Positions 6,245 through 38,417 of a DNA stretch of 42,403 nucleotides are shown piece by piece. The DNA comes from an uncultured Lachnospiraceae bacterium. Lineage in GTDB: Bacteria > Bacillota > Clostridia > Lachnospirales > Lachnospiraceae. Numbering within the stretch: position 1 is the first letter of the stretch; the number at the start of each line of letters is the position of its first letter. The notes under the pieces are model-generated. The model did not search any database and was not told where the DNA came from. It saw nothing but the letters and a program-made list of their open reading frames with translations. Both the position numbers and the translations under genes were made by a program. The stretch lies in NCBI GenBank assembly GCA_947626365.1, contig CANQRW010000025.1:1-42403 (forward strand). The letters are read 5' to 3'.

Positions 6245-6285
6245 AAGCAACGCGTCATTGGCGCCTTGTCCGCATACTGACGTAT
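6245..6285 (-). repeat. Dispersed 3'-end element, copy A (downstream of rpoZ)
   Basis: Read on the minus strand, i.e. in the direction of rpoZ transcription: ACGTCAGTATGC, a 7-base spacer, GCGCCAATGACGC, then another 7-mer. The core differs by one base from copies C and D. The two 7-mers can pair only partly here (three Watson-Crick and two wobble pairs). The edge lies 5 bases from the hairpin at 6291-6317. Confidence 0.7.
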
Positions 6286-6290
6286 GATAA

Positions 6291-6317
6291 AACCGTCCCG
6301 GCAGTCACGAGACGGTT
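6291..6317 (-). terminator. Candidate terminator of rpoZ
   Basis: AACCGTC (6311-6317 read in reverse) and GACGGTT (6297-6291) form a 7-bp stem with a 13-base loop; on the minus strand the stem runs straight into TTTTATC. The U tract is short, so termination may be partial. It lies about 20 bases after the rpoZ stop codon. Confidence 0.55.
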
Positions 6318-6336
6318 CCTCACAGGCATCCGAATC

Positions 6337-6588
6337 CTACTCCTCGCTATCCGCAGAATCATCTTCGCCTACAATCTTCACTTTCTGCTGATACAGCTCG
6401 TCAACCGCGATGGACAGCGGCTTCTTGCCTGCGTTGGCCGTCAGAGGCCGGTCGCCGGCAATGATCTGGCGGGCCCTCTTAGCCGTAGCAATCACGATAG
6501 AATAACGGCTCTGAACCACCGGCTCCTCGCCCTTCTCCACACCGCTGTTGGCTACCTGAATCAGATCGTGATAAGATGGATGTAACAT
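6337..6588 (-). CDS. rpoZ: DNA-directed RNA polymerase omega subunit
   Basis: 83 residues, the usual size. It begins MLHPSYHDLI and contains SRYSIVIATAKRARQI and KPLSIAVDELYQQKV, the conserved omega segments that contact the beta-prime C-terminus and help assemble RNA polymerase. An AAGGAG site precedes the ATG. The tail is short and acidic. It follows gmk by 74 bases; the gmk-rpoZ order is conserved in most bacteria and supports the call. A small GTCCTG/CAGGAC hairpin (6613-6629) lies in the gmk-rpoZ gap. Confidence 0.95.
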   Translation of the reverse strand: MLHPSYHDLIQVANSGVEKGEEPVVQSRYSIVIATAKRARQIIAGDRPLTANAGKKPLSIAVDELYQQKVKIVGEDDSADSEE

Positions 6589-6662
6589 AAAAATGCTCCT
6601 TTCTGTCTTCCTGTCCTGCGTCCCAGGACTCCTTATATCTTTTCGGATCTCTGCCGATATTT

Positions 6663-7283
6663 TCAGATACGGTTCAGTTCATCCTGAATACGGCGAATGA
6701 ACGCTCTGTTGTTGCTGACCCTTCTGTGCTGTGCCTGGATCAGCTGGTGCATCTCCTCCACACAGCGGTCCAGATCGTCATTGATCAGCAGGTAATCATA
6801 TTGTTCCATGCCTCCGGCTTCCTCCACAGCCCGTTTCAGCCTGGCCTCAATGACCTCCGGCCCTTCCGTCCCACGGCCCGTAAGCCGCCTGCGAAGTTCC
6901 TCAATGCTGGGCGGAGCCACAAAAAGCAGCAGCGCATCCGGGAATTTCTCACGGATATTCAATGCTCCCTGGATCTCAATCTCCAGAATCACGTCCCGGC
7001 CTGCTTCCATCTGACGGAACACGTACTCGCTCGGGGTTCCATAATAATGATTGACATATCTGGTGTGTTCAATCAGCTTGTTCTCATTGATCATTCCCAG
7101 AAATTCTTCTTCTGTGACAAAGAAGTACTCCCGGCCGTGAACCTCTCCCTCGCGGGGCTGTCTGGTCGTAGCCGATATGGACAGGGAATAATTACCGTAT
7201 CTGCTCAGAAGCTCCCTCATAAGAGTTCCCTTGCCGGCGCCGGAAAAACCGGATACCACTGCCAGAATCCCGTGATCGCTCAT
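6663..7283 (-). CDS. gmk: Guanylate kinase
   Basis: 206 residues, normal length. P-loop GFSGAGKGT at residues 12-20, the SATTRQPREGEVHGREYFF GMP-binding region, and the conserved EIEIQGALNIR segment. It phosphorylates GMP to GDP with ATP, feeding GTP and (p)ppGpp pools. AGGAG lies 8 bases before the ATG. It begins only 11 bases after the yicC stop. In Bacillus and many Clostridia a remA (DUF370) gene sits between yicC and gmk; it is absent here. Confidence 0.97.
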   Translation of the reverse strand: MSDHGILAVVSGFSGAGKGTLMRELLSRYGNYSLSISATTRQPREGEVHGREYFFVTEEEFLGMINENKLIEHTRYVNHYYGTPSEYVFRQMEAGRDVILEIEIQGALNIREKFPDALLLFVAPPSIEELRRRLTGRGTEGPEVIEARLKRAVEEAGGMEQYDYLLINDDLDRCVEEMHQLIQAQHRRVSNNRAFIRRIQDELNRI

Positions 7284-7294
7284 ATATGCCGCTC

Positions 7295-8173
7295 CTATTC
7301 AATATTCTGAATCTGCTCCCTGACCTTCTCGATCCCGGTCTTGAGAGCGATGGCCTTGTCAGACACCTCCAGATCACTGGATTTGGACAAAATGGTGTTG
7401 GCCTCCCGGTTCATCTCCTGCGCGATGAAATCCAGCTTTCTGCCCACACTGCCGCCGGCTTCCAGTTCCTTCCGGGCTGTCTTGAAATGGCTCCTCAGCC
7501 GGACCGTCTCCTCATCCACACAGATCTTGTCGGCAAAAATGGTGGTCTCCGTCACAATCCTGGATTCCTCCACGGCGGCGCCTTCCAGCATATCCCGGAC
7601 CTTGGCCTCCAGCTTCATCCGATATTCTTCCACAATACTGGGGGAACGCTGCTCAATCTGGTCCACCAGCTGAAGCATCTCATCCAGCTTTCCGATCAGA
7701 TCTTTCTTCAGATGTTCTCCCTCCCGGATTCTGGTCTCGACGAAATGGCCTGCCGCCTCTTCAATGGCCTCCGACAGGATCTTCCACATGGATTCCTCAT
7801 CCTCCGGGGTCTCCTCCATGGTCAGAACCTCCGGCATCCGTGCCAGCATGGACACGGTAACATCATTCTGCAGACCGAACTGCTCTTCCATCTTCTTAAA
7901 GTAACCCATATATTCCGCCGCCAGGACGGGATTGTACTTCAGGGACAGGGTCTGGGCCGTATAATCCTCGTAATTGATAAATACATCCACCTTGCCGCGC
8001 TGAATATCGTTCTTGAGAAGATTTCGGATAGCTGCCTCGAAATAGTTGAATTTCTTAGGCATTTTGATGTTCATATCAAGGTAACGGTGGTTGACCGACT
8101 TGATCTCCACGGATATTTTATACTGATCCGTGACCTTCTCGCATCTGCCGAAACCTGTCATGCTTTTGATCAT
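7295..8173 (-). CDS. yicC: YicC/YloC family endoribonuclease
   Basis: 292 residues. Typical N-terminus MIKSMTGFGR and C-terminus with EMNREANTILSKS and a short VREQIQNIE end, the signature of the YicC/YloC family (DUF1732 at the C-terminus). Family members in E. coli and B. subtilis are endoribonucleases; E. coli YicC promotes decay of the RyhB small RNA. It is first in the minus-strand run yicC-gmk-rpoZ and has its own strong divergent promoter (TTGACT, 17 bases, TATAAT). Upstream and divergent is rqcH, as in the ancestral Firmicutes yloA-yloC cluster. Confidence 0.93.
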   Translation of the reverse strand: MIKSMTGFGRCEKVTDQYKISVEIKSVNHRYLDMNIKMPKKFNYFEAAIRNLLKNDIQRGKVDVFINYEDYTAQTLSLKYNPVLAAEYMGYFKKMEEQFGLQNDVTVSMLARMPEVLTMEETPEDEESMWKILSEAIEEAAGHFVETRIREGEHLKKDLIGKLDEMLQLVDQIEQRSPSIVEEYRMKLEAKVRDMLEGAAVEESRIVTETTIFADKICVDEETVRLRSHFKTARKELEAGGSVGRKLDFIAQEMNREANTILSKSSDLEVSDKAIALKTGIEKVREQIQNIE

Positions 8174-8209
8174 AGGGGCCGGGCCTCTCTTTCGTCATAA
8201 GTAAATATC

Positions 8210-8238
8210 ATTATAAAGCAAACGGAAATACAAGTCAA
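8210..8238 (-). promoter_or_regulatory. Promoter for yicC-gmk-rpoZ run
   Basis: On the minus strand TTGACT (8238-8233), 17 bases, TATAAT (8215-8210). A near-consensus vegetative promoter ending about 37 bases before the yicC start codon. Confidence 0.85.
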
Positions 8239-8262
8239 CGCTCCTTGCAAAAAGTTTTGAAA

Positions 8263-8291
8263 TTGACGGAAAGAACCGTCCGCGCTATAAT
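8263..8291 (+). promoter_or_regulatory. Promoter for rqcH
   Basis: TTGACG (8263-8268), 17 bases, TATAAT (8286-8291). Near-consensus vegetative promoter about 48 bases before the rqcH start; only 24 bases separate its -35 box from that of the divergent yicC promoter. Confidence 0.87.
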
Positions 8292-8297
8292 GTCACT

Positions 8298-8314
8298 GGC
8301 GGCAGACTGCCGCC
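8298..8314 (+). other. Hairpin in the rqcH 5' leader
   Basis: GGCGGCA (8298-8304) and TGCCGCC (8308-8314) form a perfect 7-bp GC-rich stem with a 3-base loop at the very start of the rqcH transcript, 14 bases before the GGAGG site. It could stabilise the 5' end of the mRNA; no known riboswitch fits. Confidence 0.55.
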
Positions 8315-8339
8315 GCACAATAAATCCGGAGGAAATACC

Positions 8340-10127
8340 ATGGCATTTGACGGAATCGTGATCGCCAATTTAGTGAAAGATATGAAAGAACGTCTGGAAG
8401 GGGCCAAGATTACCAAAATTGCCCAGCCGGAGAAAGACGAGCTTTTATTCACCATCAAAAATTACAGGGAGACTTACCGGCTTCTGATGTCGGCCAGCGC
8501 AAGCCTGCCTCTGCTCTATTTTACAGAAACCAACAAGCCGGGGCCCCTGACCGCCCCCAATTTCTGCATGCTTCTGAGAAAGCATATCGGCAGCGGCCGC
8601 ATCGTAAAGGTATCCCAGCCGGGCCTGGAACGGATCGTCGAGTTTGAGATTGAGCATCTGGACGAGATGGGGGACCTATGCCGGAAAAAGCTGATCGTGG
8701 AGCTTATGGGCAAGCACAGCAATATCATCTTCTGCAGAGACGACGGAATCATCCTGGACAGCATCAAACACGTATCCGCCCAGATCAGTTCTGTCCGCGA
8801 AGTATTGCCGGGCCGGGAATATTTTATCCCTCAAACGGTGGAAAAGCTGAATCCTCTTACCGCATCGGAAGCTGAATTCGCCGACCGGATGCGCCGGACA
8901 CCTGCCCCTGTTCAGAAGGCCCTTTATATGAACTTCACCGGTATCAGCCCTATCGTGGGCACGGAGCTCTGTCATCTGGCCTCCACAGACGGCGACCGTT
9001 CCGCCAATGAATTGTCAGATACAGAACTGGTCCACCTGTATCACACATTCGCCCTCCTCATGGAAGATGTAAGGGAGGGTCATTTCACTTCCAATATCGT
9101 CTATCGCGGCGGGGAACCGGTAGAATTCGCGTCCGTGCCGCTGACGTGCTACGGCTACAGGTATGATGATGGCAATTTGGGCTATACTGACAACTCCGGC
9201 GAAAACGGATACTACGCCCAGGTTTTCGATTCCGTAAGCCGGCTTCTGGAGACTTACTACGCTTCCCGGGATGCCGTCACCCGGATCCGCCAGAAATCCG
9301 TTGACTTGCGCAAGATTGTCCAGACGGCCCTGGAGCGGAATTACAAGAAATATGATCTGCAGCTGAAACAGCTGAAAGACACGGAAAAGCGGGATAAATA
9401 CAAGATTTACGGAGAACTTCTCAACACCTACGGCTATGAACTGACCGGCGGCGAGAAGGAGCTTCGCTGTCTCAATTACTACACCAACGAAGAAATCCGC
9501 ATTCCTCTGGACCCCCAGCTGACCGCCCGCGAGAATTCTCAGAAATTTTTTGACAAATACAATAAACTGAAACGAACCTTTGAAGCCATGACGCAGCAGA
9601 CGGAAGAGACAAAGAAAGAAATCGACCACCTGGAATCCATCGCTACCTCTCTGGAGATTGCCCTAAAAGAAGACGACCTGGTCCAGATCAAGGAAGAACT
9701 GATGGAGTACGGCTACATCAAGCGCCGCCATGCCGGCGGCAAAAAGCCGAAGATTACCAGCAAACCCTTCCACTACCTCTCCTCCGACGGCTTCCACATC
9801 TATGTGGGCAAGAACAATTACCAGAACGAAGAACTGACCTTCAAGTTCGCCTCCGGAGGCGACTGGTGGTTCCACGCCAAGGGAATCCCCGGCTCCCACG
9901 TCATTGTGAAATCCGAGGGCAAAGAGCTCCCCGACCGTGTCTTCGAGGAGGCAGGCGCACTGGCCGCCTACTACTCCAAAGGCCGGAACAATGATAAGGT
10001 AGAAATCGACTATATCCAGAAAAAGCATATCCGCAAGGTAGCCGGAGCCGCCCCCGGATTCGTCATCTACCACACCAACTACTCTCTCATGGCGGAGCCC
10101 AGGGCGGACCTGAAGGAGATTCCGTAA
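8340..10127 (+). CDS. rqcH: RqcH (NFACT family) ribosome quality control protein
   Basis: 595 residues, typical length. N-terminal NFACT-N domain (MAFDGIVIANLVKDM; NFCMLLRKHI near residue 80), a central coiled coil of about residues 310-450, and a C-terminal NFACT-R domain (SSDGFHIYVGKNNYQNEELT, then WWFHAKGIPGSHV). RqcH is the bacterial Rqc2/NEMF homologue: it binds stalled 50S subunits with peptidyl-tRNA and directs C-terminal Ala tailing for degradation. Older annotations call it fibronectin-binding protein. The GGAGG site is 7 bases before the ATG. After the NFACT-N motif the sequence reads GLER where many homologues have GLDR; this conservative change may be lineage-typical. It is transcribed alone, facing a convergent ATPase gene across a large palindrome. 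Confidence 0.93.
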   Translation: MAFDGIVIANLVKDMKERLEGAKITKIAQPEKDELLFTIKNYRETYRLLMSASASLPLLYFTETNKPGPLTAPNFCMLLRKHIGSGRIVKVSQPGLERIVEFEIEHLDEMGDLCRKKLIVELMGKHSNIIFCRDDGIILDSIKHVSAQISSVREVLPGREYFIPQTVEKLNPLTASEAEFADRMRRTPAPVQKALYMNFTGISPIVGTELCHLASTDGDRSANELSDTELVHLYHTFALLMEDVREGHFTSNIVYRGGEPVEFASVPLTCYGYRYDDGNLGYTDNSGENGYYAQVFDSVSRLLETYYASRDAVTRIRQKSVDLRKIVQTALERNYKKYDLQLKQLKDTEKRDKYKIYGELLNTYGYELTGGEKELRCLNYYTNEEIRIPLDPQLTARENSQKFFDKYNKLKRTFEAMTQQTEETKKEIDHLESIATSLEIALKEDDLVQIKEELMEYGYIKRRHAGGKKPKITSKPFHYLSSDGFHIYVGKNNYQNEELTFKFASGGDWWFHAKGIPGSHVIVKSEGKELPDRVFEEAGALAAYYSKGRNNDKVEIDYIQKKHIRKVAGAAPGFVIYHTNYSLMAEPRADLKEIP

Positions 10128-10142
10128 AATAGGATTTTGCCT

Positions 10143-10226
10143 GCAGGATTCACCGCCTGCGGCGGGCCGCGTCAACGGCATCTTCAGCCCAACGGCATCT
10201 TCAGCCCCGCCGCAGCGCGATCCTGC
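10143..10226. repeat. Large palindrome with internal 17-bp tandem duplication
   Basis: Outer arms GCAGGAT (10143-10149) and ATCCTGC (10220-10226); inner arms GCGGCGGG (10159-10166) and CCCGCCGC (10206-10213). Between them a 17-base unit is exactly duplicated (10173-10189 and 10190-10206, starting CAACGGCATC). It fills the gap between convergent rqcH and the DUF4143 ATPase gene. No T tract follows on either strand, so it is not a typical terminator. Confidence 0.7.
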
Positions 10227-10292
10227 CCGAATCGTTTCCTGGTCTCCGGCCGGAAAGATACTGCACCTGTATACTCTTATTATACCTGCATA

Positions 10293-11633
10293 TTATCCTG
10301 CTTCTCCGGCTTTTTTCAGATACTCCTTCACCTTCCACACAAGATACAGAGGCACGCTGTACGTCAGCGTTTCTTCTACCGGGTTCTCCCCCGCGTTTTT
10401 CATGGAAAAACGGAATCCTATGTTCGGACTGTATTTCTTACAATACTGCCGGTAGCTTTTCGCCTGGGTGTGCAGCTCGGCCTTCGCCTCCGCGGGAATG
10501 ATCTGACCGTCATATTCAAACAGAAAATCCACCTCCGCCAAGTTCCCGGACCGCCAGAAATAAGGGGTGATCCCCAGAGCCGTAAGCTCCGTCAGCACAA
10601 AATTTTCCGTAAACGCTCCCTTATCATTCCGATAATCAGCAGAATCCTCAAGAATCGTCCGGTAAGAGACCCCGGACTTTCGCCTCAGCAGCCCCACATC
10701 AGCCATATAGAGTTTAAAATAAGCCGTGTTCGCGCAGTAAGACAACGGCAGTTCCGGCGCGGTGACCATTTCCAGCCGGTAGACAAGCCCGGAGTCCGCC
10801 AGCCACTCCAGCGCGTCCTCCAACTCGGCCGACCGCTTGCCGGCTTTCACATGGGAGAACACAAACTTATTGTTCTCCTTCGCCAGCTGAACCGGAATGG
10901 AATCCCAGATCCAGCCAAGCTTCGGAACATCACCCCTGGGAGCGTATTTCGCGAAATCACTGGCATAATCCAGAAGAAGCTGATCCTGCAGCCGCTCCAC
11001 CTGCTCAAAATTGTGAGTCTCCGCCCATTTGGCCACGATTTCAGGCATTCCGCCTACCACGTAATAATACCGCAGTTCCTTCTCCAGCGCCGCCGTATAA
11101 AACTCCGGCAGTTCCCTCCGGATATCATATTTTTCAAGTCCCCGCAGCAGCTCCGCTCCGCCATCGGCTCTCACAAACTCCGCAAACGTCATGGGGTACA
11201 TCCGCAGGCGGTCTACCTTTCCCACCGGAAATGAGATCGCGTCCCGTTTAAGCGAAACCCCCAGCAGCGAACCCGCGCAGATGATATGCAGCTGCCGCAG
11301 ATTTTCACAGAAATATTTCAGGGATGTGATCGCCTCCGGACACGCCTGCACCTCATCGAATATAACCAGGGTTTTTCCCGGAACGATCTGCCTTCCCCGA
11401 ATTGTATTGCCCAACTCGTCCAGAATTCGGTTCACGTCAAAATCATACCGAAATACAGAGGCCAGCCGGCGATTCCCCTCAAAATAGAAATAGGCCACGT
11501 CCTCAAAATAATCCTCTCCGAACTTTTTACAGATATAGGTCTTCCCGCACTGTCTGACGCCTGTCAGAAGAAGCGGTTTCCGGTCCTCCGAATCCTTCCA
11601 TGCAGCCAGCCTCTTCATGATATCACGTTCCAT
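10293..11633 (-). CDS. AAA ATPase with C-terminal DUF4143 domain, orphan
   Basis: 446 residues. An N-terminal AAA_14-type ATPase has Walker A GVRQCGKT at about residues 21-28 and Walker B LVIFDEVQACPEA near residue 95, followed by a GSLLGVSL sensor-like motif; the C-terminal half is a DUF4143 domain with an F(x)WRSGNLAEVDFLFEYDG segment, which resembles a PD-(D/E)XK nuclease-like core (E-V-D and later AEAK). These proteins are common, patchily distributed and of unknown function; some sit near toxin-like or defence genes, but nothing of that kind is adjacent here. Start ATG has GGAGG five bases upstream. The gene is isolated, has its own candidate promoter and is flanked on both sides by large palindromes, consistent with a movable accessory gene. 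Confidence 0.85.
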   Translation of the reverse strand: MERDIMKRLAAWKDSEDRKPLLLTGVRQCGKTYICKKFGEDYFEDVAYFYFEGNRRLASVFRYDFDVNRILDELGNTIRGRQIVPGKTLVIFDEVQACPEAITSLKYFCENLRQLHIICAGSLLGVSLKRDAISFPVGKVDRLRMYPMTFAEFVRADGGAELLRGLEKYDIRRELPEFYTAALEKELRYYYVVGGMPEIVAKWAETHNFEQVERLQDQLLLDYASDFAKYAPRGDVPKLGWIWDSIPVQLAKENNKFVFSHVKAGKRSAELEDALEWLADSGLVYRLEMVTAPELPLSYCANTAYFKLYMADVGLLRRKSGVSYRTILEDSADYRNDKGAFTENFVLTELTALGITPYFWRSGNLAEVDFLFEYDGQIIPAEAKAELHTQAKSYRQYCKKYSPNIGFRFSMKNAGENPVEETLTYSVPLYLVWKVKEYLKKAGEAG

Positions 11634-11694
11634 ACACGCCTCCGCTCTGTCCTCAAGCCCATTAAACTCACAACCATTTCATTCCGTTATCATC

Positions 11695-11723
11695 ATTTTA
11701 TCATGCGCGTTCTCTCATTACAA
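11695..11723 (-). promoter_or_regulatory. Candidate promoter for the DUF4143 ATPase
   Basis: Minus strand: TTGTAA (11723-11718), 17 bases, TAAAAT (11700-11695), with TG one base upstream of the -10 box (extended -10). It lies about 60 bases before the start codon and directly next to the palindrome at 11734-11785. Confidence 0.6.
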
Positions 11724-11733
11724 GTAAAACTTG

Positions 11734-11785
11734 CAAAAGTCCTATGACTTTCGCAAGTTATCTTGCGTTTTTCATAGGACTTTTG
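11734..11785. repeat. 52-bp near-perfect palindrome with alternative folds
   Basis: Arms CAAAAGTCCTATGA (11734-11747) and TCATAGGACTTTTG (11772-11785) pair perfectly over 14 bp; after a 4/4 internal loop, CGCAAG/CTTGCG (11752-11757, 11762-11767) gives another 6 bp with a TTAT loop. A competing fold pairs AACTTGC (11728-11734) with GCAAGTT (11753-11759) plus AAAGT/ACTTT, with a 6-base loop. It lies between the TSUP transporter stop and the ATPase promoter. Confidence 0.8.
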
Positions 11786-11805
11786 TGAATACAGCCTTCT
11801 TCCAT

Positions 11806-12570
11806 CTAATACACGCCCAGAATCTTTAAAAACAACAGAAACAGCACCAGCAGAATGCTGGGCCGCACGATCTTTGAGCCCTTGGTCATCACCAGGGAGG
11901 AGCCAATCCAGGCCCCGGCCATGTTGCAGGCGGCCGCCGCCAGACCCAGGGAAAAGATCACCTGTCCGCTGAGGAAATAGACGGCAAAGGAGGTCACATT
12001 GGTGGTCCAGTTGATGACCTTGGACTGGCCGTTGGCCCGCTTCATAGGCAGTTTGGCAAATACCGTCAGGGCAATGATCAGGAAGGTTCCCGTTCCGGGG
12101 CCGTAGAACCCGTCATAAAAACCGATGATCAGCGCCGCCAGGAAGGAAATCACATAAACCCTCCGGTTCAGGATCAGCTCGTCGCTGTCCTCGTCCGCCG
12201 GAAACAGTTTCTTGTTGAGAACGATAAACGCCGTCACCGGAAGAACCACGAACAGGATGTATTTCATAGCGGCCTCATCTACCGTCAGGGAAATCCGCGC
12301 TCCCAGAAAGGAGCCGATCATGGCGGCGATAACCGTAGGAATGGCCAGCCGGAGGCTGACCATTTTCGCTTTGATAAACTTTGCCGTCGCCAGAGTCGTC
12401 CCGCAGGCGGAGGACAGCTTGTTTGTGGCAATCGCCATATGTACCGGTATCCCGGCAATCATGTAGGCGGGCAGGGAAATCAGTCCTCCCCCGCCGCCGA
12501 TGGCGTCTACCAGCCCGGCCAGAAAGACCAGGGGGCAGACAATTATAAACATAACTGGTGTAAGCTGCAT
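11806..12570 (-). CDS. TSUP family (TauE/SafE) membrane transporter
   Basis: 254 residues with about seven to eight hydrophobic segments. Typical TSUP signature: two half-repeats, the first with a GLVDAIGGGGGLISLP motif at about residues 19-34, the second with GFYDGFYGPGTGTF near residues 149-162. Family members export or import small sulfur- or carbon-containing anions (sulfite, sulfoacetate, others); the substrate cannot be read from sequence. A weak AGGAAA site precedes the ATG. Upstream, a TATAAT box abuts a 24-base inverted repeat that could act as an operator. It appears to be transcribed alone, between thrH and the ATPase. Confidence 0.9.
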   Translation of the reverse strand: MQLTPVMFIIVCPLVFLAGLVDAIGGGGGLISLPAYMIAGIPVHMAIATNKLSSACGTTLATAKFIKAKMVSLRLAIPTVIAAMIGSFLGARISLTVDEAAMKYILFVVLPVTAFIVLNKKLFPADEDSDELILNRRVYVISFLAALIIGFYDGFYGPGTGTFLIIALTVFAKLPMKRANGQSKVINWTTNVTSFAVYFLSGQVIFSLGLAAAACNMAGAWIGSSLVMTKGSKIVRPSILLVLFLLFLKILGVY

Positions 12571-12605
12571 AAATCTATCATTTCCTAAACTTTAATTATA
12601 ATGTT

Positions 12606-12629
12606 GGGGTCAAAAGGTGTTTTGACCCC
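12606..12629. repeat. 24-bp perfect inverted repeat upstream of the TSUP transporter
   Basis: GGGGTCAAAA (12606-12615), 4-base centre, TTTTGACCCC (12620-12629). On the minus strand it ends 5 bases before a TATAAT (12600-12595), so it covers the region between the -35 and -10 positions of the transporter promoter. It could be an operator, a terminator-like stem or one half of a repetitive element with the next hairpin. Confidence 0.65.
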
Positions 12630-12640
12630 CTATGATGCAG

Positions 12641-12672
12641 GGATTGTTCCGCGCTTTGCGCTCCCACAATCC
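12641..12672. repeat. Second hairpin next to the GGGGTCAAAA repeat
   Basis: GGATTGT (12641-12647) and ACAATCC (12666-12672) enclose an inner GCGC-TTT-GCGC hairpin (12651-12661), separated by small TCC/TCCC bulges. It lies 11 bases from the 24-bp inverted repeat; the two together look like one composite intergenic element between thrH and the transporter. Confidence 0.6.
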
Positions 12673-12721
12673 TACGCCCGGGAAGACAGTCCGCCGGACA
12701 CATATCATGAATTCCGGCTTT

Positions 12722-13333
12722 CTAGTTAAACGGATCCAGGGCTTCCTTTATGGCAGCCAGCAGATCGTCAAACTCCTCAAATGCCTGCAGATCCGGATTG
12801 TCGGCGATGATCTTCTCCGTGCTCTTAAACAAAAACCCTGCCTTGCTGGCCCGGATCATGCCCAGATCGTTGTAGCTGTCGCCGGCGGCAATGGTCTCAT
12901 AGCCGATGGACTGAAGGGCCTTGACGGTACTCAGCTTGGACTGCTCCACTCGCATCTTAAACCCGGTCACTTCCCCGTTTTCCGCCACCTCCAGAGTGTT
13001 GCAGAAAATGGTAGGCCAGCCCAGCTTCTTCATAAGGGGCTTAGCAAACTGGGTAAAGGTGTCGCTTAAGATGATCACCTGCGTTACGCTGCGAAGCTCG
13101 TCCAGGAACTCTTTGGCTCCCGGCATGGGATCGATGGTGGCGATCACGTCCTGAATCTCCTTAAGTCCCAGACCGTGTTCCTTCAGAATCCCAAGCCGCC
13201 ACTTCATCAGTTTATTGTAATCCGGCTCGTCCCGGGTCGTCCTCTTCAGCTCCGGGATCCCGCTGGCCTTGGAAAAAGCGATCCAGATTTCCGGCACCAG
13301 AACGCCTTCCATATCAAGACATACGACATTCAT
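12722..13333 (-). CDS. thrH: ThrH-type phosphoserine phosphatase / homoserine phosphotransferase (HAD)
   Basis: 203 residues. The opening MNVVCLDMEGVLVPEIWIAF has the DxE form of the HAD nucleophile motif that typifies ThrH rather than SerB (which has DxD). Further HAD motifs are IILSDTF and AAGDSYNDLGM. Pseudomonas ThrH dephosphorylates phosphoserine and can transfer the phosphate to homoserine. The ATG at 13333 is chosen because GGGAGG lies 7 bases before it; a longer frame would start inside that site at TTG. It follows serS by 41 bases, so serine production and seryl-tRNA charging are probably co-expressed. Confidence 0.9.
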   Translation of the reverse strand: MNVVCLDMEGVLVPEIWIAFSKASGIPELKRTTRDEPDYNKLMKWRLGILKEHGLGLKEIQDVIATIDPMPGAKEFLDELRSVTQVIILSDTFTQFAKPLMKKLGWPTIFCNTLEVAENGEVTGFKMRVEQSKLSTVKALQSIGYETIAAGDSYNDLGMIRASKAGFLFKSTEKIIADNPDLQAFEEFDDLLAAIKEALDPFN

Positions 13334-29732: not shown

Positions 29733-29734
29733 AA

Positions 29735-31339: not shown

Positions 31340-31396
31340 AAAAAACCTCCGCCTGTCATAATCTTATAGTATTCGATAAAAGAGGAATTGCGCCCT

Positions 31397-31430
31397 GCAT
31401 ACTGGCGCTTTATTTGCATACTAACGTAAT
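31397..31430 (-). repeat. Dispersed 3'-end element, copy B (downstream of fhs)
   Basis: On the minus strand: ATTACGTTAGTATGC (31430-31416), 7 bases, then GCGCCAGTATGC (31408-31397). The first half of the core is kept; the second half (normally GACGC) is replaced by a copy of the TATGC end. It lies 2 bases beyond the hairpin that follows fhs. Confidence 0.6.
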
Positions 31431-31432
31431 CG

Positions 31433-31481
31433 AAAGGCATCCGACAGGATCCGCCGGAAACGGACACTGCCGGATACCTTT
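31433..31481 (-). other. Long hairpin downstream of fhs
   Basis: Outer stem AAAGG/CCTTT plus ATCCG/CGGAT with one mismatch, then CAG/CTG and TCCG/CGGA inner pairs and a 7-base loop. It follows the fhs stop by about 50 bases on the minus strand. No T run follows, so it may act as a processing stem rather than a strong terminator. Confidence 0.5.
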
Positions 31482-31529
31482 TCACACAGGCAGAAACATG
31501 CTCCGCACGTTTGCCCATTCTTTTATCTG

Positions 31530-33200
31530 TCAGAACAGTCCTACGATCTTGCCTTCCTCGTTCACATCGATGTTGTCCGCCGCCGGCTTCTTGGGAAGTC
31601 CCGGCATAGTCATGATCGCGCCTGTGATGGCCACCACGAATCCTGCGCCTGCGGACACATATACGTCGCGCACATTGATGCGAAAGCTGGTGGGACGGCC
31701 CAGCTTATTCTGATCGTCAGACAGAGAATACTGGGTCTTGGCCATGCACACCGGCATACGGCCGAAGCCCATGTCCTCAATCTGCTTTAACGCCTTGGCA
31801 GCCGCAGGGGCGTAATCCACGCCGTCGGCTCCGTAAATCTCCCTGGCGACAGTCTCGATCTTCTCCTTCAGGCTCAGTTCGTCGCTGTACAGCGGATGGT
31901 AATGGCTCTCCTTATTCTCCAGCGTATCGATTACCTTCTTCGCCAGAGCCTCGCCGCCTTCGCCGCCTTTAGCCCACACCTCAGACAGAGCGAATTCACA
32001 GCCTCTCTCCTCACAGAAGCCGCGGATAAATTCATATTCCGCCTCCGTATCGGTCAGGAAGGAATTCAGAGTCACAACCACCGGGACGTCGTATTTCTGA
32101 ATATTCTCAATATGCTTCTCCAGGTTTACAATACCCTTCTTAAGAGCTTCCAGATTCTCCGTCCCAAGTTCCGCCTTCGGCACGCCGCCGTTGTACTTCA
32201 GGGCTCTTACAGTCGCCACCAGCACTACCGCGTCAGGCTTTAAGCCCGCCATACGGCACTTGATGTCCAGGAACTTCTCCGCTCCCAGGTCAGCGCCGAA
32301 TCCGGCCTCCGTCACCACGATATCCGCCAGCTTCAGGGCTGTCTTGGTAGCCCTCACACTGTTGCAGCCGTGGGCAATATTGGCAAAGGGTCCGCCGTGA
32401 ACCATAGCGCCGTTGTGCTCCAGAGTCTGAATCAGATTGGGCTTAATGGCGTCCTTCAAAAGCGCCGCCATAGCTCCTACCGCGTTCAGATCCTTTGCCG
32501 TCACAGGCTGCCCCGCGTAATTGTAAGCCACGATAATGCGGCCCAGACGCTCCTTTAAGTCCGCCATATTGTCAGCCAGACACAGAATCGCCATGATCTC
32601 AGAAGCTACCGTGATGATAAAATGATCTTCACGGACAAATCCGTCCGCCTTGGCCCCCAAGCCGATCACAATGTTGCGGAGGGCCCGGTCGTTCATGTCC
32701 AGGCACCGTTTCCACAATACCTGGCGGGTATCAATGCCAAGGGCATTGCCCTGCTGGATATGGTTGTCCAGAAGAGCCGCAAGGAGATTATTGGCAGAGG
32801 TAATGGCGTGAAAATCTCCCGTAAAATGCAGATTCAGATCTTCCATGGGAACCACCTGGGCGTATCCGCCCCCGGCTGCTCCTCCCTTGATGCCGAAGCA
32901 GGGACCTAAGGACGGCTCACGCAAAGCCAGCATGGTTTTTTTATTCAGACGGTTCAGGGCATCCGCAAGACCGATGCTGGTGGTGGTTTTGCCCTCGCCG
33001 GCAGGCGTCGGATTGATAGCCGTCACAAGCACCAGCTTTCCGTCCTTCCTGTCCTTCACCTGTTCCCACAGTTCATCCGTCAGCTTTGCCTTGTACTTTC
33101 CGTACAGTTCCAGGTCGTCCTCTGAGATTCCGTACGCAGCCGCAACCTCTCTGATGGGCAGCATGGCCGATTCCTGTGCAATTTGAATGTCTGTTTTCAT
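31530..33200 (-). CDS. fhs: Formate--tetrahydrofolate ligase
   Basis: 556 residues from the ATG at 33200 ([10 protein letters not shown]), which follows AGGAGG; a longer frame adds 22 residues without a good site. ATP-binding [20 protein letters not shown] near residue 60, [22 protein letters not shown], and the end [10 protein letters not shown] are hallmarks of the family. It makes 10-formyl-THF from formate, THF and ATP for purines, fMet-tRNA and, in acetogens, the Wood-Ljungdahl path. It lies 81 bases after ftsK with no clear promoter between. No THF riboswitch is seen. Confidence 0.97.
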
Positions 33201-33281
33201 GTACAATCCTCCTGTAATAAATGTCTTCTTGTTAAGCTGTTCTTTGGTTTCTGACAGCAGTTGCACCTTTTTCTTTTTCCG

Positions 33282-36200
33282 TTACTCTTCCCGCATCATG
33301 GCCTCAAACTCTTCCAGGGTCATTAATACCTTTCTGGGCTTGGTGCCCTCTTCCTCGCCTACAACGCCTGCCTCCGCCAGCTGGTCCATGATCCTGGCCG
33401 CGCGGTTGAAGCCGATCTTGAACATCCGCTGCAGCATGCCGATGGAACCCTTCTCCTTCTCGATAATGAATTTGCCGGCCTGGGCAAAATATTCATCCCG
33501 GTCGCCGCGTCCGTCGCCTCCGATCATCGACGCAGGCATAGCGATCTGATTCTGAATCTCCTCGCTGTACTCCATGCCAAGTTCCTGCTTCGTCAGGAAA
33601 TCCACTACCCCGGAGACCTCGGAATCGGATACAAAAGCACCCTGGACACGCTTGGGCTTGGTCATGCCGGCCGGATAGAACAGCATGTCGCCCTTGCCCA
33701 GAAGCTTTTCCGCGCCTACCATATCCAGAATCGTACGGGAATCCACGCCCGATGACACCGCAAAGGCGATTCTGGAAGGCACGTTGGCCTTGATCAGGCC
33801 CGTGATGACATCCACGGAAGGCCTCTGAGTCGCGATCACCAGGTGGATTCCGGCGGCTCTGGCCAGCTGGGCAAGACGGCAGATAGAAGCCTCTACCTCG
33901 CCGGGAGCAACCATCATCAGGTCGGCCAGCTCGTCGATGATAATGACGATCTGCGGCAGCTTCACCGGTTTATTCTCATCCTCGATATCTTTGATGGCTT
34001 CCACCTTCGCGTTGTATCCCTTCAGGTCCCGGACATTGTACTGGGCAAATTTCTTGTAGCGGTCGTCCATCTCCGCCACCGCCCAGTTCAGGGCCCCGGA
34101 TGCCTTCTTCGGATCCGTCACCACCGGAATCAGAAGATGGGGAATGCCGTTGTACACGCTCAGTTCCACCACCTTCGGGTCCACCATGATGACCTTTACG
34201 TCATCCGGATTGGCCTTGTAAATGATGCTCATGATCAGCGTATTGATACAGACGGATTTGCCGGAACCGGTAGAGCCTGCGATCAGCAGATGAGGCATCT
34301 TGGCAATATCCGTCACCACCACCTGTCCGCCGATATCCTTGCCGACCGCGAAGGCCAGCTTGGACTGGCTGTCCATAAATTCCGGCGTCTCCAGCACTTC
34401 CCGGAGATACACTACATTGTTCTCCTTATTAGGAACCTCAATGCCCACGGCGGATTTGCCGGGAATCGGGGCTTCGATTCGGATATCAGCGGCCGCCAGA
34501 CTCAGTTTGATATCGTCTGCCAGCCCTACGATCTTGCTCACCTTCACGCCCTGTTCCGGATGAAGCTCATACCGGGTAACAGAAGGTCCGCAGCTGACGT
34601 CAGTCACCGTAACGCCTACGCCGAAATCCCGAAGCGTCTGCTGCAGCTTGATCGCCGTCTCCCGGTACTCCTTGTCTGACTGGGTGACATTGCTGTTTCC
34701 GCGCTTCAGCAGGCTGATGGGCGGGAACTTGTATTCCTTCTTAACTGCCGGCTTCTTCGCGATCTCCGCATCCACGCCGTCGTTTTTGGTCTCTTTGACT
34801 TCCTGACGCTTCGCTTCAATCTTCTTGCGGAGCGCCTCCGTATCGCTCTCGATGATCTTACCTGTAGCGGTAACGATACGTCTGCTTCCCTCCGACATAA
34901 TCAGCTCGCCATCTGCCGTCACGCCCGCCGGCAGATCATTCCCGGCCGGCTCCTTAGGCATACCGTCCGCGGCATACGCCTCCGTACCATCCGCAAAGTT
35001 TTCCGCCATATCATCGGCAGCAGGCTCCTCCGGCATCGGGGTATCCTCCCTGCCGCCTGCATCCGCGCCATACCCGGCAGCGGAATCCTCTTCCGGGACG
35101 GAAACATCTCTGAATCCGCCCGTCTCCCAGTCGGAAATCTCTGTCCCGGGAACATTCTCTGTGGAAACATTCTCCGTATCAAAGGGAACCCTATCATCCT
35201 CCGGGTCTATGTAAACCGGAGGACGGTTGATATTGCCCGTAAATACATCGGCCGAATGCCAGCCGCCTCCGGCCGTATTTTTCGGCAGAAGATCGTCCAT
35301 AAACGCCTGGTTGCCCACTTCCGGATCAAATTCTGGCATGGCAGTCTTCTTTCCTTTGCGGCTGCCGGACCAGATAACAGGACCTGGCACCGGATCCTCA
35401 TAATTGCCTCCGGCATCACGGGAATCCTCATAATCGCCTCCGGCATCATAGGAATCCTCATAATCGCTATCAGAATTGCAGGAAATGTCCTCATAGGAAT
35501 CGCTGCCGTATTCATCCGCCGCCGGTCCTTCCTGCATCTCCATCCGGTCTGTCCTGCGCTCATCGTACTCCTCATCATAAGCCTGTCCTGCCATATCCGT
35601 TTCCGGAACCGGCAGCGCCTCCAGCTTGGTGGAATTCAGATTCACGCCGCGGACCTTCTGTTCCTCACGGAGCCTGCGCCGCTCTTCCTTTCGCTCCTGG
35701 TGGATCTCATGGCGCCGCTCCGCATCCTCTCTGGCATACTGATAGGCCTTTCCGCCGCCTCGCTTTACGGCGGAGACCACAGATTTCTCCGTGATGCACA
35801 CGATGCAGATCACCAGTCCCACCAGAAGAATCAGATAAGCTCCCACCGTACCCAGAACCGAACCGATCGCCAGCACCAGAATCCCTCCCAGCGCTCCGCC
35901 GCCCGCGCCGCTCCTGGCGCAGTTCGCGTAAATCTCGCCTATCTTCATTCCCGGCACATAACCGCCGCCGAACACCAGCTGGGCCAGCCCACACAGGATG
36001 CACACTCCGGCGATCACTGCCGTCATCTTAATCCTGGCCAGAGCGCTTCCCCGGTTAGCCATAATAAAGCACGTCCCCGCAAACAGGAGAATAGGCGCGG
36101 CGTATCCGATCATCCCGAAAACGCCCAGCTGCACCGTCCGAAGTACATCTCCCAACGCCCCGCAGAGACGAAAATTACACAAAAAGCACAGCACCGCAAC

Positions 36201-36341
36201 TGCAAACGAGGCGATAATCGCCACCTCTGTATAGATAAAACTGTCCTCCTGCTCCTGAACCTTTCTCTGATTTCTTCCCTTTGAGCCGGAACCTGTCTTT
36301 CTGCCGCCTGTCTTCCTGCTGTTCTTTGATTTACCAGCCAC
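33282..36341 (-). CDS. ftsK: FtsK/SpoIIIE family DNA translocase
   Basis: 1019 residues. Four membrane segments at about 36-57, 72-95, 106-126 and 150-182, a long acidic Pro/Glu/Gly-rich linker (about 230-530), then the motor: Walker A GSTGSGKS at 689-696, Walker B IVIIIDELADLMM, and a C-terminal winged-helix gamma domain that reads KOPS/SRS sequences. It pumps chromosome DNA through the division or sporulation septum. The linker is unusually long and holds 10-residue tandem repeats. GTG start, supported by AGGAGG 9 bases upstream and by a good promoter. The neighbouring tepA-spoIIIE order is seen in Bacillus. Confidence 0.95.
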   Translation of the reverse strand: MAGKSKNSRKTGGRKTGSGSKGRNQRKVQEQEDSFIYTEVAIIASFAVAVLCFLCNFRLCGALGDVLRTVQLGVFGMIGYAAPILLFAGTCFIMANRGSALARIKMTAVIAGVCILCGLAQLVFGGGYVPGMKIGEIYANCARSGAGGGALGGILVLAIGSVLGTVGAYLILLVGLVICIVCITEKSVVSAVKRGGGKAYQYAREDAERRHEIHQERKEERRRLREEQKVRGVNLNSTKLEALPVPETDMAGQAYDEEYDERRTDRMEMQEGPAADEYGSDSYEDISCNSDSDYEDSYDAGGDYEDSRDAGGNYEDPVPGPVIWSGSRKGKKTAMPEFDPEVGNQAFMDDLLPKNTAGGGWHSADVFTGNINRPPVYIDPEDDRVPFDTENVSTENVPGTEISDWETGGFRDVSVPEEDSAAGYGADAGGREDTPMPEEPAADDMAENFADGTEAYAADGMPKEPAGNDLPAGVTADGELIMSEGSRRIVTATGKIIESDTEALRKKIEAKRQEVKETKNDGVDAEIAKKPAVKKEYKFPPISLLKRGNSNVTQSDKEYRETAIKLQQTLRDFGVGVTVTDVSCGPSVTRYELHPEQGVKVSKIVGLADDIKLSLAAADIRIEAPIPGKSAVGIEVPNKENNVVYLREVLETPEFMDSQSKLAFAVGKDIGGQVVVTDIAKMPHLLIAGSTGSGKSVCINTLIMSIIYKANPDDVKVIMVDPKVVELSVYNGIPHLLIPVVTDPKKASGALNWAVAEMDDRYKKFAQYNVRDLKGYNAKVEAIKDIEDENKPVKLPQIVIIIDELADLMMVAPGEVEASICRLAQLARAAGIHLVIATQRPSVDVITGLIKANVPSRIAFAVSSGVDSRTILDMVGAEKLLGKGDMLFYPAGMTKPKRVQGAFVSDSEVSGVVDFLTKQELGMEYSEEIQNQIAMPASMIGGDGRGDRDEYFAQAGKFIIEKEKGSIGMLQRMFKIGFNRAARIMDQLAEAGVVGEEEGTKPRKVLMTLEEFEAMMREE
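35393..35467 (-). repeat. 30-bp in-frame tandem repeats in the ftsK linker
   Basis: Units 35393-35422 and 35423-35452 plus a partial third (35453-35467), encoding DYEDSYDAGG-type decapeptides at about residues 294-316. The difference between units is four bases. Confidence 0.85.
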
Positions 36342-36377
36342 TATCTATTGCCTCCTTACGAAATTGCCTCAAAATAT

Positions 36378-36406
36378 AGTATACAAAAAATGGGAGCAAA
36401 TTGCAA
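36378..36406 (-). promoter_or_regulatory. Promoter for ftsK
   Basis: Minus strand TTGCAA (36406-36401), 17 bases, TATACT (36383-36378), about 37 bases before the GTG start. The same box pair and spacing recur upstream of the SEC-C gene. Confidence 0.8.
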
Positions 36407-36440
36407 GGCTATCCCTCCGTTTCCCGCAGATTGATTCAAC

Positions 36441-36488
36441 GGCGTAATACAAAAAACGCGTCACTGGCGCGTTTTTTGCATACTGACG
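36441..36488 (-). repeat. Dispersed 3'-end element, copy C, with perfect bidirectional hairpin
   Basis: Minus strand: CGTCAGTATGC (36488-36478), AAAAAAC, GCGCCAGTGACGC, GTTTTTT, GTATTACGCC. The two 7-mers and the core ends make a perfect 10-bp stem around the loop CCAGTGA (36467-36461), with A and T runs on either side, so it could stop transcription in both directions. Confidence 0.75.
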
Positions 36489-36498
36489 CAACAGACAA

Positions 36499-36519
36499 GG
36501 ACGCCGGATTCCGGCGTCC
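36499..36519 (-). terminator. Intrinsic terminator after tepA
   Basis: GGACGCCGG and CCGGCGTCC make a perfect 9-bp stem with a 3-base loop, followed on the minus strand by TTGTCTGTTG. It lies 7 bases after the tepA stop codon. The T tract is interrupted. Confidence 0.7.
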
Positions 36520-36526
36520 CGCAAAA

Positions 36527-37240
36527 TTATTTTTTTTCTCTTTCTCTCTCCTCGATCATCCGGTGGAGCTTCGCAAGGGCCTCCCGGATCCCGCCCACCT
36601 CGTTGATCAGCCCCTGCTCCACCGCTTCCCGCCCTACCAGCACAGTGCCCAGGTCCCTGGTCAGCATCTCCGTATTCAGCATCAGCTTCTTCACCTGGTC
36701 ATAGGCAATCTCCGCGTGATTGGCGATAAAGTTCAGGATACGGTCCTGAATCATCTCAAAATATTCGTAAGTCTGGGAAGCGCCGATGACCATCCCCGTC
36801 ATCCGCACCGGATGAACCATCATGGTCCCCGTGGGAACAATAAAGGAATAATCCGTGGACACTGCCAGGGGCACTCCGATGGAATGGCTGCCCCCCAGGA
36901 CCAGGGACACGGTGGGGACGCTCAGGGATGCGATCATCTCCGCGATGGCAAGTCCCGCGTCTACATCTCCTCCCGACGTGTTGAGAAGCACCAGAAGCCC
37001 CTCCACCTCATCATTATCCTCAATGGCCGCCAGACTGGGAAGAACATGGTCGTATTTGGTGGTCTTGGCACTTCCCGGGGCATTCTCATGGCCCTCCACC
37101 TCCCCAATGATGGACAGCAGGTGAATCTTTCTTCTGCTCCGGTTCTCTTCCAAAGTCAGCTGGCCGTATTCCTCCAGTTTCTCGTCCTCTTTCTCCTGAA
37201 TCTCCTTCTCATCTTTTCTATCTTCACGATCCTGATCCAT
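36527..37240 (-). CDS. tepA: ClpP/TepA-type protease homologue
   Basis: 237 residues from the ATG at 37240, 9 bases after AAGGAG; the longer frame would need a TTG. The first about 35 residues are charged and Glu/Lys-rich. Then the ClpP fold: LLVLLNTSGGDVDAGLAIAE, GGSHSIGVPLAVS with the likely nucleophile Ser120, and MMVHPVRMTG with His143. This matches B. subtilis TepA (YmfB), a ClpP-like protein reported to aid protein secretion and germination. It differs from true ClpP by its charged N-terminus and the HSIG nucleophile region. It lies upstream of ftsK on the same strand, separated by a terminator and element C. Confidence 0.87.
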   Translation of the reverse strand: MDQDREDRKDEKEIQEKEDEKLEEYGQLTLEENRSRRKIHLLSIIGEVEGHENAPGSAKTTKYDHVLPSLAAIEDNDEVEGLLVLLNTSGGDVDAGLAIAEMIASLSVPTVSLVLGGSHSIGVPLAVSTDYSFIVPTGTMMVHPVRMTGMVIGASQTYEYFEMIQDRILNFIANHAEIAYDQVKKLMLNTEMLTRDLGTVLVGREAVEQGLINEVGGIREALAKLHRMIEEREREKK

Positions 37241-37335
37241 GGCACGACACTCCTTCAATAAATTGCTTGATTAGGGATAGTCTGCCTGAAAATATCAGAA
37301 ATTATACGGACGGATCACGCGCGGACACAGCAATC

Positions 37336-37896
37336 TTATTTGCCGGAATAGGAACCGCGTTTCAAAAGCCTTCGCATATACCGAAATGTCTTCTTCTCTC
37401 CCTCCCGGCTGAGCATTGTCAGAATCTTCTCCAGTTCCCCTGCCGTATCCGGATGGATCAGCGGCCTGACGTAGGGCTTCTCCCGCTCATAGTATTCCAG
37501 GGCGCTGGAATCGGTATAATCCTTTCCCTTATACACTCTGCAGGCGGCAATCCGGTCCATGACCATCTCCACAAGATAATTGACCGGCATAGGGTGACCT
37601 ACCAGCCCCTTCTCCTTGTCCAGGGAGAAATCAATCCAATACTCGAAATGGTGCTTGTTTCTTCCCTTATGATGAAGCCAGGCCGTGGAAAATCCTTTTT
37701 GCTCCCTCTCCGCGGCGTTGGGACTCCGGGTCCCCTGATAGTATTTCACGCCGACGGCAAACTCCTCCGGAGAGTACTTGGACATATCATGGAGAAGTCC
37801 CTGACGGAACAGGCCGACCCGGAAGCAATTAATCATAACCAGCCATTTATGCTCCGTAATTGTACAAAAATGTTTCCATGCTTTTTGATGTTTCAT
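37336..37896 (-). CDS. DUF5662 family protein
   Basis: 186 residues from the ATG at 37896, preceded by AGGAGG; a GTG six codons earlier is less likely. A soluble, His-rich protein: HxxxH near the N-terminus, LLHDMSKYSPEEF (an HD-like pair), WLHHKGRNKHHFEYW and a further MVMDRIAA segment. The spacing of H, HD, HH and D resembles HD-domain-like metal hydrolases, so a metal-dependent phosphohydrolase is possible, but the function is unknown. It is divergent from cspA and lies 95 bases upstream of tepA. Confidence 0.75.
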   Translation of the reverse strand: MKHQKAWKHFCTITEHKWLVMINCFRVGLFRQGLLHDMSKYSPEEFAVGVKYYQGTRSPNAAEREQKGFSTAWLHHKGRNKHHFEYWIDFSLDKEKGLVGHPMPVNYLVEMVMDRIAACRVYKGKDYTDSSALEYYEREKPYVRPLIHPDTAGELEKILTMLSREGEKKTFRYMRRLLKRGSYSGK

Positions 37897-37978
37897 CCGA
37901 GGTTCCTCCTGCACTTTCTTGATTTTTGAAAATCTTGCATTTTTTCGGATACTTTTCCCGCATTTTTTGCGAAAATAT

Positions 37979-38007
37979 TTGACACTTTTTTACAATTATG
38001 CTATTCT
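37979..38007 (+). promoter_or_regulatory. Promoter for cspA
   Basis: TTGACA (37979-37984), 17 bases, TATTCT (38002-38007), with TG one base before the -10 box (extended -10). The leader is about 50 bases long, without the long cold-shock 5' UTR of E. coli cspA. GGAGGT at 38051-38056 is the ribosome binding site. Confidence 0.85.
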
Positions 38008-38064
38008 TAACACAGTTGCAATATTTGCACCAGAATCATCATTTTCATTTGGAGGTAACTTATC

Positions 38065-38265
38065 ATGAGCAAAGGTACAGTTAAGTGGTTTAACAATCAG
38101 AAGGGATACGGCTTCATCTGTGATGAGCAGGGTAATGATGTTTTCGTTCATTACTCCGGGCTGAACATGGAAGGCTACAAGACCCTGGAAGAGGGCGCTG
38201 CCGTTGAATTCGACGTAGTGGAAGGCGCCAAGGGACCACAGGCTACCAACGTTACAAAACTTTAA
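38065..38265 (+). CDS. cspA: Cold shock protein (CspA/CspB family)
   Basis: 66 residues. Single cold-shock domain with RNP1 KGYGFI (about 14-19) and RNP2 VFVHY (about 27-31); binds single-stranded RNA/DNA as a chaperone that melts structures in mRNA. It starts [12 protein letters not shown], the classical form. Own strong promoter and terminator make it a single-gene unit; short, highly expressed genes of this type often have near-consensus signals, as here. Confidence 0.96.
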
Positions 38266-38332
38266 TTCTCAAGCGACAGTGTACCTTTATTTATGTAGTA
38301 ACAATATAGCGCACACCGTGTATGATCGCGAG

Positions 38333-38361
38333 AAGGACCGCTCAGGCAGGCGGTCCTTTTT
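38333..38361 (+). terminator. Intrinsic terminator of cspA
   Basis: AAGGACCGC (38333-38341) and GCGGTCCTT (38350-38358) form a perfect 9-bp stem with an 8-base loop, then TTT (TTTTT counted from the stem end). It lies 67 bases after the cspA stop. Confidence 0.88.
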
Positions 38362-38367
38362 GTATCT

Positions 38368-38417
38368 GCATGCGAGCGGAGCGCCAGTGACGCTCTGCTC
38401 GTATTACGTCAGTATGC
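38368..38417 (+). repeat. Dispersed 3'-end element, copy D (downstream of cspA)
   Basis: Plus strand, the direction of cspA: GCATGC, GAGCGGA, GCGCCAGTGACGC (38381-38393), TCTGCTC, GTATTACGTCAGTATGC (38401-38417). The stem GAGCGGAGCG/CGCTCTGCTC (one mismatch) encloses the same loop CCAGTGA as in copy C, with different paired bases. It begins 7 bases after the cspA terminator. Confidence 0.75.

Follow-up and report, generated by a model that had tools for sequence, protein, structure and literature searches.

What is the short element that recurs at gene ends in one stretch of bacterial DNA, and why does it always stand just behind a hairpin? The window, by which we mean the whole 42,403-nucleotide stretch analysed here (contig CANQRW010000025.1 of assembly GCA_947626365.1, from an uncultured Lachnospiraceae bacterium), carries copies behind rpoZ, fhs, tepA and cspA, and an earlier note on it had proposed either an element resembling repetitive extragenic palindromes (REPs) or miniature inverted-repeat transposable elements (MITEs) that targets terminators, or a functional signal at RNA 3' ends. 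The copies belong to a strand-asymmetric 44-nt hairpin element that lies 3' of terminator-like hairpins at ...TT|, mostly co-oriented with the upstream gene. We consider it fairly probable that these units are small non-autonomous REP-like mobile DNA, landing behind terminators by single-strand transposition of the IS200/IS605 type and using their own end as a further target.

Read in register, the unit is 44 nt long, starts with ACGTC and ends with GTATT. It consists of an unpaired tail (ACGTCAGT), the stem ATGC-N7-GCG, the loop CCAGTGA, the stem CGC-N7'-GTAT and a final T, forming a 14-bp hairpin in which the N7 and N7' arms are mostly complementary. In 37 of 40 aligned rows the foot of the stem, ATGC/GTAT, includes a G-T pair, its place being taken by G-C in the other three, and this G-T pair together with the complementarity of the arms makes the hairpin strand-asymmetric. 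In a second tail type (B type) TCC replaces ACGTCAGT and CGTC is absent. The stems belong to a small number of discrete types (AAACAAA/TTTGTTT, AAAAAAC/GTTTTTT, GAGCAGA/TCTGCTC, AAATAAA/TTTATTT and AAAAAGA/TCTTTTT). The motif described by the earlier note does recur, but it is only the left part of the unit that runs from ACGTC to GTATT; likewise, its seven variable bases are there, not as a free spacer but as the left stem arm, with the right arm beyond the core. The A-type tail also contains CGTCA, which is complementary to TGACG where loop and stem meet (for example at window 36446-36489) and would permit a different fold or a contact between tail and loop; no such complementarity exists in the B type, and it is therefore not essential.

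The element is abundant and its distribution is narrow. In the window's own genome (G000; 3.50 Mb, 144 contigs) a search for the two-part pattern, as the earlier note had suggested, gave 61 + 98 = 159 matches at up to three mismatches and none for the reversed control pattern at the same threshold, which rejects a chance repeat. The pattern was found in 14 of 41 related genomes, all in the same genus, and a covariance model had matches in 16 of 26 genus genomes (ten with at least 57 to at least 166, six with 1 to 12) and none in the other ten; 150 first-look candidates were scored per genome, so the larger counts are minimum values. Under stricter filters, with 21 candidates scored per genome, the model matched just the window's own genome among 295 of the order, so that a wider clade was rejected although weak relatives may have been missed. 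The named records that carry the pattern are uncultured Lachnospiraceae metagenome-assembled genomes (MAGs) labelled Lapin, a name suggestive of rabbit, with at least 74 stretches. Spread by phage was also rejected, as the exact pattern occurred in 0 viral contigs.

Placement was tabulated, as had also been suggested, in 733 kb of the same genome (400 kb taken consecutively from contigs C1-C3, plus the window and the surroundings of known copies), which hold 104 units in 86 arrays. Genes were called by a custom codon-score script rather than a standard gene finder (coding fraction 0.905), and a unit was taken as first in its array when no recognised unit lay within 60 nt upstream, so that some 5' flanks may be decayed units. 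The tabulation bore out the link to gene ends: by first base all 86 arrays are intergenic, and 73 of 85 have a co-oriented upstream gene (p 8e-12 against one half). For 56 of the 86 arrays the 18 nt upstream contain the end of a simple hairpin, against 9.5% of 1500 random intergenic points; at least four T occur among the last eight bases before 76 arrays, against 20% of random intergenic points; and a fold of -12 kcal/mol or lower lies in the 60 nt upstream of 78, compared with 52% of 704 points placed equally far behind genes. TT directly precedes the unit in 76 of the 86 arrays, each of the two positions being T in 81, and position -3 is A in 44. Among first units in the relatives' loci, TT precedes 94 of 99 of the A type and 21 of 23 of the B type.

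Comparison with relatives showed an insertion directly. At L129:19090 (plus strand) the window's genome reads CTGCTCTCTTT-unit-TTGTGCAGG, where the relative G023 (L286) reads CTGCTCTTTTTGTGTTGG, with flanks 90-91% identical; the junction is CTCTTT|unit|TTGTG against CTCTTTTTGTG. An exact 44-nt segment, ACGTC to GTATT, has been inserted into the five-T run of a terminator T-tract with 0 bases duplicated, and a separate 2-nt difference lies just upstream. A recognisable terminator without the unit is likewise present in the relative at L148, L154, L158 and L159 (by eye), with less tidy junctions. The unit differs from a MITE with terminal inverted repeats in that its ends are not mutual inverted repeats, apart from the ATGC/GTAT foot, and in that no target duplication is seen at this one clean site. 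Copies, placement, the clean empty site, turnover and tandem arrays together lend good support to the first proposal of the earlier note, a REP- or MITE-like element that targets terminators.

Turnover is fast. Thirteen arrays have an orthologous interval in G023 (flanks 74-97% alike; stretches chosen blind to units, absence meaning more than 6 of 25 mismatches), and a unit is present in 2 of these and in none of the other 11. Among all 24 arrays with an orthologous interval, a same-strand unit was found in at least one relative for 11 and none on either strand for 12, but only 13 of the 24 comparisons are unbiased because the other loci were fetched as unit holders or model matches. In one of the 11 arrays without a unit in G023 (L193 against L271, flanks 96-97% alike) another hairpin module occupies the same left junction; at L127:16496 the two species each have a unit in the same place (flanks 96% and 85% alike) with entirely different stems; and two duplicated stretches on contig C119 of G000 carry different stems. 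Tandem arrays are tightly spaced: the 18 unit pairs less than 60 nt apart have a spacing of 44 nt (12) or 43 nt (6), the next tail following directly after GTATT. When L175 is compared with L075, two tandem units in one species face a single unit in the other, which carries the left arm of the first of the two, a difference consistent with unit loss by recombination between cores. Units are thus swapped, lost and recombined between species, giving rise to mosaic stems, in which the left arm of one type is joined to the right arm of another; among 88 units with a 7-nt right arm, which include such mosaics, all seven positions are paired in 51, six in 22 and five or fewer in 15.

The features of the window are as follows.

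6240..6283, minus strand: unit A behind rpoZ, 44 nt, tail ACGTCAGT, arm mismatches, end ATATT; fold z -0.12, no better than shuffles.
6292..6316, minus strand: terminator-like hairpin behind rpoZ, ACCGTC...GACGGT followed by TTTATCAT; read from the sequence, bounds by eye.
31401..31427, minus strand: truncated unit behind fhs, ACGTTAGTATGC-AAATAAA-GCGCCAGT, right half lost; fold z -0.01.
31436..31478, minus strand: terminator-like hairpin behind fhs, followed by TTTCGATT; read from the sequence, bounds by eye.
36446..36489, minus strand: complete unit behind the ClpP-like (tepA) gene, 14-bp hairpin; minimum free energy -16.7, z -3.3.
36498..36520, minus strand: terminator-like hairpin behind the ClpP-like (tepA) gene.
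38333..38358, plus strand: cspA terminator hairpin AAGGACCGC...GCGGTCCTT, followed by TTTGTATC; read from the sequence, bounds by eye.
38370..38405, plus strand: first-unit hairpin behind cspA, tail degenerate; minimum free energy -23.4, z -5.0.
38406..38465, plus strand: second, tandem unit behind cspA, with tail ACGTCAGTATGC (38406-38417) and another hairpin module, GCGCTGTTGCAG...CTGCAATGACCCCC.

All four locations named by the earlier note do hold copies, none inside a called gene, and the upstream genes were identified by Pfam as Rpb6 (rpoZ), FTHFS (fhs), Clp protease (tepA) and cold-shock domain (cspA). Each copy lies past a same-strand hairpin, at 8 nt for the three minus-strand copies and about 3 nt before the degenerate tail at cspA, the bounds being mostly by eye. 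The copy at 36446-36489 folds exactly into the consensus 14-bp hairpin, and two of the four (rpoZ and fhs) are decayed, folding no better than shuffles. The motif ACGTCAGTATGC has 8 matches in the window at up to two mismatches against 1.7 expected (0 of 100 shuffles reach 8; three of the 8 are not units), and the core GCGCCAGTGACGC alone is unremarkable, with 20 matches at up to three mismatches against 12.5 and three shuffles that get there. The copy behind cspA had been described as a symmetrical unit in reversed order; we rejected this palindromic arrangement, as the site is instead a tandem, a hairpin with degenerate tail followed by the tail of a second unit and a different hairpin (38406-38465). 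This latter hairpin represents a second repeat family, a long hairpin GGGGCTGYTGCAG...CTGCARCAGCCCC that occurs alone and also between a unit-type tail ACGTCAGTATGCAAA and end TTTGTATT; its sites are window 38406-38465 and places near L129:11421, L133:555, L152:2543, L158 and L193/L271.

What might move such a unit? IS200/IS605 elements insert without target duplication, and like the unit they insert into one strand directly 3' of a short T-rich target and carry hairpins. The genus has an IS200 of its own, whose TnpA (153 aa, encoded on the minus strand at L113:1429-1890) scores 161 bits against NF033573 and 40 bits against the REP transposase model (cut-off 80). Its left ends were located at nine places in five genomes, each preceded by a sequence that folds at -14.9 or better and finishes with TT, the hairpin at L234 being the least regular; the left boundary was set by hand (the element starts ACG, ACA, ATA or CA) and the hairpin and TT counts have no shuffled control. 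Four of the nine left ends sit on the GTATT ends of units, and two of 14 right ends abut ACGTCAGT. At L113 and L240 the IS200 has GTATT on one side and ACGTCAGT on the other, which at L113 places it at a unit boundary, and at L237 its right end adjoins a complete unit. The unit therefore shares its target, terminator-TT sites, with the IS200 of its genus. Furthermore, 7 of the 16 genomes with units have IS200 ends, against 0 of the 10 without units (Fisher p 0.023, uncorrected for kinship). As a non-autonomous derivative of this family the unit has the expected lack of duplication (one clean empty site) and conserved 5' target (TT in 76 of 86), but not shared ends; it has a single hairpin, no gene and different ends.

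Our best guess is accordingly IS200-type mobilisation of the units, in which we infer both the enzyme and the single-strand route. A transposition of the IS200/IS605 type (HUH, one tyrosine) would take the T-rich 3' foot of a terminator hairpin as its target. The end of the unit, with its hairpin, T-rich arm and GTATT, would imitate a terminator end and would thus become the next landing target, which we propose as the source of the arrays. The enzyme could be the TnpA of the genus IS200 acting in trans, or a related transposase that our searches did not find. Sites behind terminators would be harmless and would let copies accumulate, and the pattern is explicable without any host function.

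Several observations weigh against this explanation. The upstream gene is on the opposite strand for 12 of 85 arrays and 8 of 86 have no upstream fold of -12; only one junction is clean, the other occupied/empty pairs having ragged ends; and the upstream-fold count for IS200 lacks a control of its own. By eye, the IS200 ends (ACGGGCTTTAGCC.../...GGCGACT) are unlike those of the unit (ACGTCAGT.../...GTATT). No IS200 end was found in 9 of 16 unit-bearing genomes, an absence that is weak evidence because MAG assembly collapses repeated sequence and some of the IS200 ends are themselves at contig ends. The presence of Y1 transposases, taken as a class, does not follow that of the units (5 of 15 bearing genomes searched against 5 of 10 without), and the class was rejected as the mover. 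In the parts of the genomes examined no element with unit ends and a transposase gene, and hence no autonomous version, was found; at L113, the one place where parts of units flank a transposase, the element is the IS200, which keeps its own ends and has inserted into an array. For this search 14 further stretches were fetched, L293-L304 serving only as BLAST targets. At ten Y1 loci units lie beside the insertion sequence, never as its ends; the unit pair at L060 encloses a short PIN-like open reading frame (named by eye), and that at L291 no transposase-like one (by eye). The weakest point concerns target choice. In IS608 and REP transposases a guide tetranucleotide 5' of the hairpin picks the cut site (PMC6006769, PMC8266576). 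In the units no guide/target complementarity of the IS608 type was seen, we did not succeed in deriving TT from the unit tail by this rule, and both tail types (ACGTCAGT and TCC) use the TT target despite their different tails.

As a separate observation, fragments of an IS200 tnpA at L292 (G000:C111) flank three tyrosine-recombinase-like genes in a row (recombinases named by eye), an arrangement that we liken to Tn554-type elements.

Among the alternatives, classical REPs moved by a REP-associated tyrosine transposase (RAYT) since lost or missed would account for several features, although we regard this as unlikely. The unit is a REP in the broad sense of a 20-50 nt palindrome that is mostly intergenic and of high copy number (44 nt, 159 copies, 86 of 86 arrays intergenic), and its 5' unpaired tag, imperfect stem and position at gene 3' ends are REP features as well (PMC3733652, PMC8266576). 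However, the RAYT partner for which the earlier note had called did not appear: 0 of 26 genus genomes pass the curated cut-off of NF047646, with the reservation that MAG assemblies may lack repeats, and no RAYT gene flanked by repeats was seen. The GTAG REPs and REPINs are, like the unit, intergenic non-autonomous hairpins thought to be moved by HUH transposases, but they are described as inverted pairs (PMC8266576, PMC3116915), whereas the units form head-to-tail arrays, and the unit tails are ACGTCAGT or TCC, not GTAG. The closest likeness is to the CGTC-REPs, described by Di Nocera et al. (2013, PMC3733652) as small high-copy intergenic palindromes located behind genes. In these, CGTC forms part of a 5' tag that stays unpaired, the stem opens with the pairs AT, and no transposase is known; the same work lists five phyla, Firmicutes not among them. 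It gives these families a stem of 8-9 bp, a loop of 4-5 nt, a CCA tail and mostly head-to-head dimers, whereas the unit has 14 bp, 7 nt (CCAGTGA), a final T, head-to-tail arrays and a place behind terminators. In addition, the CGTC that directly precedes the stem in those families is 3 nt away in the A type and missing in the B type. We have not filed the unit as a CGTC-REP because of its stem, loop, end, array order and B-type tail.

A functional signal at RNA 3' ends, that is, a second hairpin past the terminator, under selection, that stops read-through or sets the 3' ends, was the other proposal of the earlier note, and we judge a conserved signal of this kind less likely, indeed improbable. 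Units are co-oriented with genes and terminators, and many resemble terminators themselves because the right arm has at least five T in 78 of 104. Moreover, an alignment of 40 of the 197 distinct units has 60 cells changed on both sides of the 14-bp stem against 20.7 in shuffles. These rows were each selected for at least 5 of 7 arm pairs, which biases the covariation count towards pairing, and when pairs with changes in both partners are counted instead (7 against 5.8 in shuffles), 50 of 500 shuffles reach the same level. The two-sided changes are better explained by ready-made types inserted and recombined than by slow in-place compensation, because the stems come in discrete types, are swapped whole and form mosaics, which pair less well. 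Types such as GAGCAGA/TCTGCTC lack a T-tract, and the tandem and convergent gene contexts of the arrays (52:18) are as expected from random gene ends (122:44). The retention of a unit in only 2 of the 13 unbiased comparisons, the whole-stem swaps and the poorer-pairing mosaics disfavour selection for such a signal. Rfam gave 0 matches at the gathering score in the window and 0 in six unit loci, and a known RNA family was rejected on this basis.

Group IIC introns insert behind terminator hairpins in the same orientation, and a group II intron of the genus, with left end GTATGRCGGGCAYGCCGTCAGTCTG and a reverse transcriptase/maturase confirmed by TIGR04416 at 415 bits (L307:2002-3063), does so too. 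Sixteen loci were fetched, and at 10 of the 10 junctions scored the left end lies behind a hairpin-T tract, three of them on units; the loci left unscored lack the full left-end motif or enough upstream sequence, and the count has no shuffled control. Among the unscored loci, by eye, L307, L311 and L312 follow a hairpin and L308 does not.

L305, L306, L307, L309, L310, L313, L314, L315 and L317-L319: intron sites behind hairpin-T tracts, twice on the opposite strand of a unit.

That the units were spread by this intron machinery or by another RNA-based route is nevertheless highly improbable, since the intron junction (TTTTT..|GTATG) differs from that of the unit (..TT|ACGTC), these introns are ribozyme retroelements of kilobases against 44 nt, the Rfam result offers no match, intron left ends are present in 6 of the 16 genomes with units and in 2 of the 10 without, and group II maturases, rejected as the mover, do not track the units (domains in 2 of 10 unit-rich against 5 of 10 unit-free genomes, a weak comparison because repeats collapse in these assemblies).

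Returning to mobile DNA moved by an IS200/IS605-type route, a more specific version may be put forward, tentatively: the unit could be a selfish terminator-homing hairpin that mimics terminator shape, builds arrays, swaps modules (CCAGTGA, GGGGCTGCTGCAG) between the same ends, and is moved in trans by the resident IS200 TnpA despite the different ends. If so, terminators would be a docking site shared in this genus by three unrelated mobile elements, the units, the IS200 and the group II intron. More generally, our data suggest that terminators are a landing place which mobile DNAs of unrelated kinds have in common. Screening of titles and the openings of abstracts found no report of IS200 or REP insertion behind terminators, though this does not prove that none exists. 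For CGTC-type REPs no mover is known (PMC3733652), and the REP-like family described here lands at the same kind of site (hairpin, TT) as a resident IS200, so that the mover of such repeats becomes testable with one protein and a few oligonucleotides. The units also call for caution, as paired changes in a repeated hairpin can stem from whole-unit insertion and not from selection on RNA structure.

Lastly, at L035 and L128 two species that are about 74% alike over the region have identical sequence for about 86 nt upstream of a shared terminator; the segment could perhaps be an unannotated small RNA or leader.

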